Assembly: GCA_018716065.1 (NCBI GenBank)
Contig: DVKJ01000029.1
Location: 1-39,293 of the forward strand
Source of the DNA: Candidatus Pelethosoma merdigallinarum
GTDB lineage: Bacteria > Bacillota_I > Bacilli_A > RF39 > UBA660
Direction: 5' to 3'
Length of the DNA stretch: 39,293 nt
The first letter of the stretch is position 1. Each line of letters opens with the position of its first letter. This document shows positions 11,905 to 39,293 of this stretch, in pieces. The position numbers and the translations under genes are program-made. The notes beneath the pieces were generated by a model. It was given only the letters and a program-made list of their open reading frames with translations, made no database searches and was not told the origin of the DNA.

Positions 11905-11910
11905 ATCTAT

Positions 11911-11990
11911 GACGCAACAATAATGATTGAACCAGGTCAGAGTTGGAAGACAGCAGCCTTAAGGTCCTCTTATTGTGTGCGTCTTTTATT
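11911..11990 (+). ncRNA. ffs: Signal recognition particle RNA, small (4.5S) form
   Basis: The conserved domain IV is visible: ACCAGGTCAGA, then GGAAGACAGCAGCC, then AAGGTCC, forming the symmetric and asymmetric loops bound by Ffh. The ends GACGCA (11911-11916) and TGCGTC (11978-11983) close the stem, extended by ACAATAA with TTATTGT, and TTTTATTTT follows as terminator. At about 75-80 bases it has domain IV only; there is no room for the Alu-like domain of the long Bacillus SRP RNA. Position between the gyrase genes and tadA/dnaX matches other Firmicutes. Confidence 0.9.
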
Positions 11991-12012
11991 TTAAAAGAAG
12001 TAAGGTGATCCT

Positions 12013-26651: not shown

Positions 26652-26877
26652 ATAGAAAAGACGAAGAAGGAAAGAAAAATAATGGATTTGATAGAGACTT
26701 TGTGGGTGGTGGAAACAAAGATTGAAGTTATTTCGAATGGTTCTGGAGTCTTGTTATCGATAGGTAGGTAACAACGTCACACGCGTTAAGTGGTTAAGGT
26801 GATTTATGGTTTTCATAAATTATAAAATAAGGTGGTACCACGTAACACACGTCCTTAAGTGATGTGTGTTTTTTTCA
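26652..26877 (+). promoter_or_regulatory. T-box riboswitch controlling metG
   Basis: The T-box proper, AAGGTGGTACCACG (26829-26842), is unmistakable; its bulge pairs with the free CCA end of uncharged tRNA. A terminator follows, with CACAC and GTGTG arms (about 26845-26868) and a T-run to 26875. In Stem I an arm CTTTGT closes with ACAAAG around 26697-26719, and the Met codon ATG at 26737-26739 in TTCGAATGGTTC is the likely specifier. GTTATC and GGTAAC near 26754-26771 form a further stem. The 317-base gap before metG is thus explained: uncharged tRNA-Met should favour antitermination. Confidence 0.9.
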
Positions 26878-26931: not shown

Positions 26932-28503
26932 ATGGAAAAAGAAAAATTTTATATTTCAACCGCCATTGCGTATACTTCAGGAAAACCTCATATTGGAAAT
27001 ACCTATGAAATTGTCCTAGCGGATGCGATTGCTCGTTATAAACGTTTTTTAGGATACGATGTGTATTTTCAAACAGGTACGGATGAACATGGGGAAAAGA
27101 TCGAACAAAAGGCGAAAGAAGCGGGAATTGCCCCACAAGAATATGTAGATAATATGGCTTTAGAAGTAAGACGTATTTGGGATGTTATGAATACCAGTTA
27201 TAATCGCTTTATTCGTACAACGAATCCTGCACATAAAGAAATGGTTTCTAAAATATTTAAAAAATTATATGATCAAGGAGATATTTATAAAGGAAAATAT
27301 GAAGGTTTATATTGTACTCCTTGTGAATCATTCTTTACAGAAAGTCAATTAGTCGATGGGAAATGTCCAGATTGTGGACGTGAAGTCCATAAAGCCAGTG
27401 AAGAAGCTTACTTCTTTAAAATGTCTAAATATTCAAAATGGTTAGAAGAATATATTGAAAGTCATCCAGATTTTATTGAACCAGAAAGTCGTAAAAATGA
27501 AATTATGAATAATTTTATTAAACCAGGGTTACAAGACTTGTGTGTAAGTCGTACAAGTTTTACTTGGGGAGTGCCTGTAACGTTTGATGAAAAACATGTT
27601 ATTTATGTATGGATCGATGCTTTAAGTAATTATATTACTTTCTTAGGATATGATGTAGATGGAAATTCGAGTGAAGAATTCCACAAGTATTGGCCTGCCG
27701 ATATTCATCTAATTGGAAAAGATATTTTACGATTCCACACGATTTATTGGCCAATTATGTTACATGCATTAGGGTTAGAAATGCCTAAGAAAATTTTTGG
27801 TCATCCATGGGTATTATATGGTAATGATAAAATGAGTAAAAGTAAAGGAAATATCATGTATGCGGATGATTTAGTAACTCATTTTGGAGTCGATGCGATT
27901 CGTTACTATTTACTTCATGAAATCCCATTCTCTTCCGATGGAACCATTACATATGATTTAATTATTGAACGTATTAATTCTGATCTTGCCAATGTTTTAG
28001 GTAACTTAGTGAATCGTACCATTAGTATGTCTAAAAAATATTTTGATGGAATTGTACTCGCACCAACTGCGAAAGAACCAATGGATGATGAATTTATTCA
28101 ATTGGTATTAAGTGCGAAAGATCGTGTAACGGAAAAAATGGATCAATTGCGTATTTCTGAAGCTCTTGATGAAATTTTTGAAATTTTTAGAAGAAGTAAT
28201 AAATATATTGATGAGACGATGCCATGGGTTTTAGCAAAAGATGAAACTAAAAAAGAAAGACTTGCGACGGTTTTATATAACTTGTTAGAAGCGATTCGTC
28301 AAGGCGCAGTTCTTCTACAAGCTTTCTTACCTGACACATCTAAAGAAATTCTTCATCAATTAAATACAGATAATCATTTTATAGAGTCTTTAAATGAATT
28401 TAATGGTTTAGATGAGGGAATTCATTTAAATGATCCACATCCAATCTTTGAACGTATTGATAAGGCTAAAAAAATAGAAGAATTAGAAAATATGAATAAA
28501 TAA
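26932..28503 (+). CDS. metG: Methionyl-tRNA synthetase
   Basis: This class I synthetase charges tRNA-Met and initiator tRNA. The HIGH-like motif is KPHIGN and the KMSKS motif is DKMSKSKGN. The zinc knuckle C-x2-C...C-x2-C (CTPC, CPDC) lies near residues 128-150. At 523 residues it lacks the C-terminal EMAP/Arc1p-like tRNA-binding dimerisation domain seen in the roughly 660-residue B. subtilis MetS; the frame ends soon after the anticodon-binding helices. AAGGAGAT precedes the ATG. A T-box leader regulates it and a terminator follows. The spoVT-metG-tatD order matches the abrB-metS-yabD neighbourhood of B. subtilis. Confidence 0.96.
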   Translation: MEKEKFYISTAIAYTSGKPHIGNTYEIVLADAIARYKRFLGYDVYFQTGTDEHGEKIEQKAKEAGIAPQEYVDNMALEVRRIWDVMNTSYNRFIRTTNPAHKEMVSKIFKKLYDQGDIYKGKYEGLYCTPCESFFTESQLVDGKCPDCGREVHKASEEAYFFKMSKYSKWLEEYIESHPDFIEPESRKNEIMNNFIKPGLQDLCVSRTSFTWGVPVTFDEKHVIYVWIDALSNYITFLGYDVDGNSSEEFHKYWPADIHLIGKDILRFHTIYWPIMLHALGLEMPKKIFGHPWVLYGNDKMSKSKGNIMYADDLVTHFGVDAIRYYLLHEIPFSSDGTITYDLIIERINSDLANVLGNLVNRTISMSKKYFDGIVLAPTAKEPMDDEFIQLVLSAKDRVTEKMDQLRISEALDEIFEIFRRSNKYIDETMPWVLAKDETKKERLATVLYNLLEAIRQGAVLLQAFLPDTSKEILHQLNTDNHFIESLNEFNGLDEGIHLNDPHPIFERIDKAKKIEELENMNK

Positions 28504-36531: not shown

Positions 36532-38532
36532 ATGAATCGTAAGCAAATGAAAAGAAATTTCTTACCATATGTTTTTCTTGCCCTATTTATTGTAGGTGTC
36601 TTGTTCTTATTTGATAGTTTAAATCAAAAAGTAAATGTATTAACATATGATGAATTTATGGATATGGCTAGTAAAGGAGATATTACAGAAATTCAAATTG
36701 TACCAAAGAGTAGAGCGAGTGTCTATGAATTACGTGGAATCGCCGAGGGGTATAATGAGAGTGAAACATTCTTCTTACGTGTACCATTATCCAATGATGT
36801 CATGGGAGAGTTATTAGATCTTCAAAAGAAATATGATTTTAAAATGGATACTGCTCCAGATCCAGAATCTAGTACATTCTTATTATTTTTAATGAATGTA
36901 TTGCCAATGGTTATTATCATTGGAGGTGCATTCTTCTTGATTACAAGACAAATGGGATCTGCCAACAAATCAATGGATTTTGGAAAGAGTCGTGCCAAAT
37001 TAAATCCTGATAGTAATAAAGTAACATTCAAAGATGTCGCAGGATTAGATGAAGAAAAAGAGGAAGTTCAAGAATTAATTGACTTCTTAAAAGAGCCAAA
37101 GAAATTCCAACGTTTAGGAGCTCGTATTCCAAAAGGGGTCTTATTAGTAGGTCCTCCAGGAACTGGTAAAACATTACTTGCTAAAGCCGTTGCGGGAGAA
37201 GCGAACGTACCATTCTATTTTATCAGTGGATCTGATTTCGTAGAATTATTCGTTGGTGTCGGAGCCAGCCGTGTTCGTGATATGTTCAAACAAGCAAAAC
37301 ACAATGCTCCATGTTTAATCTTTATCGATGAAATTGATGCAGTTGGACGTCAACGTGGAAGTGGAATTGGTGGAGGACACGATGAACGTGAACAAACCTT
37401 AAACCAATTATTAACTGAAATGGATGGATTTGGTGCGAATGAAGGAATTATCATCATTGCCGCAACGAATCGCCCAGATGTTTTAGACCCAGCCTTATTA
37501 CGTCCAGGACGTTTTGACCGTCAGGTAACCGTAAATCTTCCAGATAAAAAAGGACGTGAAGAAATCTTAGCTGTTCATGCCCGTAATAAAATCTTTGAAG
37601 ATAACATTACCTTATCTAATATTGCTGCTCGTACCGTTGGATTTAGTGGTGCAGACTTAGAGAACTTACTAAATGAAGCCGCACTGCTTGCTGTACGTCG
37701 TAATAAAGCAGCTATCAGTATGGAAGAATTAGATGAAGCTCATGACCGTGTCATTATGGGACCTGCTAAAAAATCTCATAAATATACGGAACATGAAAAG
37801 AAAGTGGTTGCTTATCACGAAGCTGGACACGCTGTATTAGGACTTCGCTTAAGTGGAGCCAATGAAGTTCAAAAAATCACGATTATTCCACGTGGTAACG
37901 CTGGTGGATATAACTTAATGTTACCAAAAGAAGAAACTTATCTTTCAACTAAAACTGAGTTATTAGAAACCATTAGTGGTTTACTAGCTGGACGTGTCGC
38001 TGAAGAAACTGTATTTGGTGAAATCACAACCGGTGCACATAATGACTTTGAAAAAGCCACGAAAATTGCCCGTAGTATGGTAACCGAATATGGAATGAGT
38101 GATTTAGGACCTGTTCAATTTGAACATCAAGAATCAAGTGTATTCTTAGGTCGTGATTACAATAAGAGTCGTAATTTCTCAAGCCAAGTTGCTTTTGAAA
38201 TTGACCAAGAACAACGTAAAATTATTAACGAGTGCTACGAAGTAACAAAGAAAATTATTAAAGAAAATCTTGATTTATTAGACTTAATCGCCAACACGTT
38301 ATTAAAATATGAAACCATTACCAAAGAACAAATTGAATATTTAGTCGAACATGGTCATATGCCAAATGAAGAACAACCAAAAGAAGATGAAGTAAAACCA
38401 ATGACTTTATCGGATCTAAGTTTAGAAGATCTAAAAGAAATGGCAAAAGAACGTGGTATTACAAACTATGGTAAAATGAAGAAAGAAGATCTTATCAAAG
38501 CACTTGAAGACTATGAAGAAGAGGATGAATAA
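36532..38532 (+). CDS. ftsH: ATP-dependent zinc metalloprotease FtsH with SAP/Rho_N-like tail
   Basis: This is a membrane-anchored AAA+ protease for quality control of membrane and regulatory proteins. Two membrane spans (about residues 10-28 and 115-137) flank the extracytoplasmic domain. Walker A is GPPGTGKT (207-214), Walker B IFIDEID (263-269), and the second region of homology includes [20 protein letters not shown]. The M41 zinc site is HEAGH (429-433) with Asp504. Residues 623-660 form an unusual extra module: [33 protein letters not shown]. It has the helix-extension-helix pattern of SAP or Rho N-terminal domains, which bind nucleic acid. AGAAGGAGG precedes the ATG. Confidence 0.96.
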
Positions 38533-38700: not shown

Positions 38701-38747
38701 GGGGGGGGGTATTCGATATTGACTTTTTGATCTTTTTCTTATATGAT
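38701..38747 (+). promoter_or_regulatory. Promoter with adjacent G9 tract before the secreted-protein gene
   Basis: TTGACT (38719-38724) and TATGAT (38742-38747) have a 17-base spacer. A run of nine G (38701-38709) begins 18 bases before the -35. In so AT-rich a genome this tract is exceptional. Homopolymeric tracts in this position can alter promoter strength through slipped-strand length changes. Confidence 0.7.
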
Positions 38748-38769: not shown

Positions 38770-39293
38770 ATGCGAACGAGACAAAAACAGAGAATAATCA
38801 TTGGAACATTATGTGCGGTGATTATAGGTTTAGCTGTAGGATATGCCGTACTAAGTCAAACCTTAACTATTAACGGTACCGGAGGAATCGCATCGGATTT
38901 CAATATTTTATTTACGGATATCCAAGAAGGAACGATGAATGGAGCAACAACCGTAAATAAGCAAATCACAGATTCCACTACCGCTACTTTCACCATTGAT
39001 CTTAAAAAGCCAGGCTCAAAAGGAGAGTATTTAATTACGGTAGAGAATCGAGGAACGATTGATGCGATGGTAGAGAGTATTAGTGGGATTGATGAGGCCA
39101 ATCAAGCCGCCCCAACAGATATTACGTTTAGTATTTCAGATATCGCAGTAAATGATAAGCTACCAGCGAAAGAATCTAAAGTGTTTAAGGTAAAGGTAGA
39201 TTGGAGTAGTGCATCAACGAGCATTCCAAATACGAATAAAGACTTAACATTAAAAATTAATTTTGTGCAAGATGCAAGTAGTACACCAACTCC
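38770..39293 (+). CDS. Secreted or membrane-anchored surface protein, N-terminal part
   Basis: The gene starts at the ATG at 38770, preceded by GTAGGAGGATACT, and is still open at the window end (174 codons seen). The product has a basic start (MRTRQKQR), one hydrophobic segment (about residues 9-28, GTLCAVIIGLAVGYAVLS) and then a polar, beta-rich exterior: QTLTINGTGG, repeated T, S, D and N. The stretch after the membrane segment resembles the start of TasA/camelysin-like or similar extracellular Firmicute proteins, where YAVLSQTLTI-like sequence is common, but I cannot fix the family. The end PTP suggests a proline/threonine-rich linker. Confidence 0.75.
   Translation, partial: MRTRQKQRIIIGTLCAVIIGLAVGYAVLSQTLTINGTGGIASDFNILFTDIQEGTMNGATTVNKQITDSTTATFTIDLKKPGSKGEYLITVENRGTIDAMVESISGIDEANQAAPTDITFSISDIAVNDKLPAKESKVFKVKVDWSSASTSIPNTNKDLTLKINFVQDASSTPT

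Follow-up and report, generated by a model that had tools for sequence, protein, structure and literature searches.

The tract of nine guanines (G9) that precedes a surface-protein gene in the DNA analysed here is, judging from its many related copies, part of a putative promoter cassette that is repeated about 20 times before surface-protein genes, rather than a lone variable switch. The best explanation, which is considered somewhat probable, is that G9 is an invariant component of a module that carries a promoter and an insulating hairpin, has spread before at least 20 surface-protein paralogs, and descends from a slippery ancestor. The window, meaning the whole stretch of 39,293 nucleotides that was analysed, belongs to a genome (G000) of 1,324,942 bases in 66 contigs, which was compared with a sister species (G002), a congener (G001), and other members of the family. 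The features of the window that bear on the cassette are:

36532-38532, + strand: ftsH-like gene (by sequence), upstream and in the same direction; a terminator-like hairpin of its own is located just 3' of the stop codon
38685-38700, + strand: TTGCAAACGAACATAC, directly 5' of G9; candidate ancestral element, from comparison with G001
38701-38709, + strand: G9 tract; outer 5' arm of a hairpin in paralogous copies
38710-38740, + strand: spacer with the -35 box and a pyrimidine-rich stretch, which pairs with G9 in paralogs
38719-38747, + strand: sigma-A type promoter TTGACT-17-TATGAT, from a promoter scan
38770-39291, + strand: exported-protein gene, truncated at the contig end; encodes an N-terminal helix and a predicted beta-sandwich

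It is confirmed that the G tract is non-random and is part of a surface-protein gene's promoter region. Two overlapping G8 matches occur in the window, compared with 0.02 expected from dinucleotide shuffles, and no further run of eight or more guanines was found in the whole 39,293 nucleotides. The first-pass annotation had called a nine-G run improbable by chance, and a homopolymer of at least eight in this promoter region indeed exceeds what chance would give. The promoter it described is real as well: the -35 box TTGACT (38719-38724) and the -10 box TATGAT (38742-38747) are separated by 17 nucleotides and match the consensus at 10 of 12 positions, with G9 starting 18 nucleotides upstream. 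A promoter scan of the window by itself is not above chance (four sites, compared with 3.6 in shuffles); the promoter is nevertheless credible, because its -35 and -10 boxes are conserved across more than 20 copies of the module. Elsewhere, the window contains a bacterial small SRP RNA (Rfam RF00169) at 11906-11991 and a T-box leader (Rfam RF00230, 104.8 bits) at 26655-26859, upstream of an ORF at 26932-28503.

The ORF at 38770 begins with MRTRQKQRIIIGTLCAVIIGLAVGYAVLS, a membrane or signal helix, and continues with a predicted beta-sandwich. The structure predicted from a 27-sequence alignment (mean pLDDT 83), which can be viewed with fair confidence, comprises a single helix at the N terminus and a beta-sandwich with roughly eight strands. 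A search of PDB folds with the beta-sandwich gave no match below E = 0.001; the best, at E 0.0095, is not a firm relative. The N-terminal helix is hydrophobic and of the export type, and the earlier description of an anchored extracellular protein is reasonable; any sortase motif would lie beyond the contig end that cuts the ORF. ORFs downstream of the modules mostly begin with MRTRxKQRIIIGTLCA, and longer paralogs have a C-terminal DUF6273 domain, which was found in both full-length ORFs tested. A diversity-generating retroelement producing variable C-termini of the DUF6273 type was considered and dropped, because only a 143-residue reverse-transcriptase fragment, on contig C54, was found in G000. 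Three family members, on contigs C21, C28, and C29 (loci L034, L023, and L025), carry a frameshift early in the gene, within its first third; the frameshifts are not at a long homopolymer, and the loci represent pseudogenes, chimeras, or assembly joins. On C28 near 33.4 kb (L061), a group II intron-like 5' end of the GTGTGCC... type interrupts a family gene.

Searching G000 for G8 returned 34 overlapping matches, which correspond to 17 tracts, each exactly nine guanines long, and an exact-G9 search again gave 17. The annotation had suggested looking for other tracts of at least eight guanines or cytosines near promoters; all 17 are in one repeated promoter module before paralogous exported-protein genes. 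The module has the layout [ATACAT]-G9-hairpin-T5-10-(-10 box), and the surroundings shared by the 17 tracts are (A)TACAT or TCCAT, G9, a TAT(C/T)TG-like element, TTGA(C/T)A, a pyrimidine run ending in T5-T10, G, and TACAAT/TATAAT. The distance from G9 to the -35 box is 8-9 nucleotides in nearly all copies. A sequence-only model of the module has 23 matches in G000 and 13 in G002, where the four pure tracts are all G9. Interrupted tracts are present in four copies in G000, three of length 9 (GGGGGGAGG, GGGAGAGGG, and GGAGGGGGG) and one of length 10 (GGGAGGGGGG), and a truncated gene copy has GGAGGGGG. One orthologous site differs between G000 and G002 by a G-to-A substitution (GGGGGAGGG) with its length unchanged. 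A wider scan of genome contigs with a loose-gap pattern gave chance matches only, and a scan of viral contigs gave three chance matches.

Every copy was folded from the G tract to the -10 box. The tract forms the 5' arm of a terminator-like hairpin overlapping the -35 box in 27 of 29 copies; in most, the -35 box is enclosed by an inner stem, 3' of which are the pyrimidines that pair with the guanines, followed by the T run. When the G and T runs were fixed and only the middle was shuffled, the folding Z-score was -1.8 to -5.4 in 27 of the 29 copies, which are related and hence not independent in these counts. The inner stems vary yet remain complementary (TATTTG/CAAATA, TTATTG/CAATAA, and TATC/GATA, and in G002 GTATATGA/TCATATAC). 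In subtype A, 98.7% of cells are paired, compared with 65-73% in a slid control, and there are two double-sided compensatory pairs; in subtype B, 98.3% of cells are paired, with no double-sided change. Many of the stem pairs are G-U, which is unusual for a strong terminator. Guanine is retained beyond what pairing alone would demand, a hint that the tract is under a second constraint. No Rfam 15 covariance model matched the region at 38.5-39.3 kb or five module loci.

The copy in the window is one of the two whose hairpin is not above chance (Z = +0.7; p = 0.44 in a second folding test), and the hairpin is therefore claimed for the module and not for this copy. Its T run is only TTTTTC, compared with T5-T10 3' of the stem in paralogs. 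A different hairpin proposed previously, in which CGAA..TAC faces GTATTCG with the guanines in the loop, can be drawn but is private to the window copy. It was rejected as a general feature, since it is not conserved and paralogs have the guanines in the stem.

Each of the 26 modules examined is preceded by an ORF in the same direction, with the caveat that the ORF calls are mechanical and that the genes of G000 are mostly co-directional anyway. In seven modules, 6-16 nucleotides separate the upstream stop codon from the tract, and this interval contains no other T-run hairpin. The position of the module would fit a terminator for the upstream gene. Several upstream genes, including ftsH, already carry a terminator of their own. 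Overlap of a hairpin with a promoter is rare by chance according to a strict scan, with six hits in 40 shuffled windows; the strict scan of the window for general terminator-promoter overlap gave no hits. Hairpins overlapping promoters without G9 were observed on contig C44 of G000 and in relatives (L125 and L138). Pilin-like genes (KGFTLIELLAVIVILAI) of genome G120 (L121-L124) show this overlap without G: their -35 boxes are located within an AT-rich hairpin, after which come T7 and the -10 box.

Tracts of eight or more guanines were found in 84 of 117 genomes of the family. TTGAC followed by G8 within 12 nucleotides could be placed 527 times across 41 of 114 genomes, compared with seven times for a reversed control; the placements overlap and so exceed the number of tracts. 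Genes for exported proteins or pilins in other genera are preceded by G8-G14 tracts located between a TTGACA-like and a TATAAT-like box, and the length of the tract varies among paralogs whose flanks are identical. In genome G016, for example, TTGACAAATATGC-Gn-TATCCT with n = 9 to 14 results in spacers of 16-21 nucleotides. The congener G001 has TTGACA-N9-G9-TATAAT, with G9 inside an 18-nucleotide spacer, before the same gene family and with a homologous leader; a sibling copy has GGGAGAAGG before the same gene family. Among the 45 family genomes with at least ten G8 matches, G000 and G078 (five tracts) are the only ones in which all tracts are G9. The G8-G14 spacer tracts of the family are likely to constitute a large phase-variable promoter set, and spacer tracts of differing length in relatives probably act as on/off switches. 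The variable spacer tracts across the family, together with the layout in G001, therefore make slippage likely in relatives and probably the ancestral use of the tract.

Dozens of G8-G14 tracts each are present in G016, G025, G031, G063, G074, G076, G083, G086, G098, and other genomes (L151-L208 and L329-L348). Many of these tracts are inside the -35/-10 spacers of genes for exported proteins and pilins, and paralogs differ in the length of the tract. In G005, from a neighboring genus (L120, L164, and L329-L332), a G9 or G10 hairpin and a T run are located just before the coding region; several of these loci are preceded by a TGCAATATGCACAC-like sequence and possibly combine a promoter spacer and a leader terminator. 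Genome G025 (L156 and L333-L338) has 37 tracts of exactly G9; in several, TGCAATACAAT comes next and the upstream sequence has no clear -35 box, a layout unlike that of other genera.

The sequences show that the module consists of CAT-G9, an inner inverted repeat whose loop and 3' arm hold the -35 box, the pyrimidine stretch that pairs with G9, the T run, and the -10 box. According to the preferred explanation, the RNA hairpin of G9 with the pyrimidines, followed by a U run, would terminate transcripts that arrive from the co-directional upstream gene, in the manner of an intrinsic terminator, and every copy would thus bring its own insulation as well as its own promoter. The module may descend from the poly-G-spacer promoters that are common in the family and still present in G001 before the same genes, with the old -10 box eroded and a new promoter formed about 30 base pairs downstream. 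It is possible that TTGCAAACGAACATAC holds a remnant of the older -35 box, TTGCAA, 10 nucleotides before G9, as suggested by comparison with the G001 layout. The length of the tract would no longer be a switch in G000 and would have stayed at nine; the tract would now be frozen as a hairpin arm that probably insulates the gene from upstream transcription. The hairpin of the window copy appears to have decayed, and its G9 would therefore be a legacy of the module or be retained for some other reason.

Slippage at G9 could instead cause phase variation, if changes in length shifted upstream contacts or the hairpin and thereby switched each surface gene. This is unlikely, and slippage switching in G000 is not supported. 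The idea of a switching promoter tract, put forward in the first-pass annotation, agrees with the variable-length poly-G tracts found in promoters before surface genes across the family, and with the G9 in the spacer of G001, but several observations in G000 and G002 speak against it. All 21 pure tracts in the two species (17 of 17 in G000 and four of four in G002) are exactly nine guanines long, the orthologous pair is separated by substitution and not by length, and mutS is intact in G000. Furthermore, the tract does not set the -35/-10 spacing, because it ends nine nucleotides upstream of the -35 box, outside the spacer that it occupies in G001 and other genera. The long tracts are not attributed to a loss of mismatch repair, an explanation that was rejected since mutS is above the family cut-off in 53 of 58 genomes, including G000. 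A nine-G consensus leaves some room for slippage, because in Treponema pallidum tprL a modal G9 coexists with G7-G11 (PMC7864442) and consensus assembly can hide minority lengths. A literature search for phase variation in RF39 gave no match.

It is less likely still that G9, at about -54 to -46, binds a regulator or acts through DNA shape and thereby co-regulates the set of surface genes. Such a role would explain why guanine is retained where A or G would both permit pairing, why G9 is at a near-constant 8-9 nucleotides from the -35 box, and why the window copy keeps G9 though its hairpin decayed. However, the regulator is hypothetical, G-to-A changes are tolerated in four copies, and the hairpin accounts for most copies without a regulator. 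The use of the module and the conserved signal-peptide codons as a recombination landmark for surface-gene shuffling is very improbable: many loci share the module and leader while their downstream domains differ, and many contigs, including that of the window, end shortly 3' of the module, but G9 is unneeded for homologous recombination, the contig breaks show only shared sequence, and the flanks of one locus are orthologous in G000 and G002.

What appeared as a single odd G run is thus part of a genome-wide, putative regulatory module, which, like its family context, is of more interest than a lone tract. The family apparently has a large set of homopolymer-spaced promoters, with dozens of G8+ tracts in some genomes of 1.0-1.5 Mb, and surface phase variation could be tested in this uncultured lineage directly from metagenome reads. 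The comparison of G001 with G000 and G002 offers a within-genus case of a slippery switch apparently being frozen. As a tentative generalization, this family of uncultured bacteria with small genomes may use poly-G-spacer promoters for large surface-gene sets, from which one lineage made a self-insulating cassette with the terminator hairpin and promoter in the same 45 base pairs and the formerly slippery tract locked at nine as an arm of the hairpin.

The module resembles an intrinsic (Rho-independent) terminator in that, in most copies, a hairpin is directly followed by a T run and positioned after a co-directional gene. Unlike in such terminators, the 5' arm of the stem is all G and its pairs are largely G-U, the hairpin contains the -35 box of the next gene, and the T run is the spacer of that gene's promoter. 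The vlhA genes of Mycoplasma are a multigene surface-protein family with a conserved promoter repeat of GAA units. They share with the module the many paralogs, each with a repeat beside its promoter; however, there is no repeat-number difference between the module copies. Phase-variable poly-G promoters are known from Neisseria porA and T. pallidum tprL and tp0126 (PMC7864442). Like these, the module has a tract of about nine guanines in the promoter region of surface-protein genes, and relatives in the family also share the spacer position and variable length. By contrast, the G000 tract is located 5' of the -35 box, has the same length at all 17 loci, and contributes to a hairpin in most copies. 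Slippage of G tracts occurs in pilus genes of Bifidobacterium (PMC9187656), a Gram-positive gut commensal in which G10-G11 tracts are likewise tied to surface structures; unlike in the module, the Bifidobacterium tract is located within the gene's coding region, where it causes frameshifts (PMC9187656).
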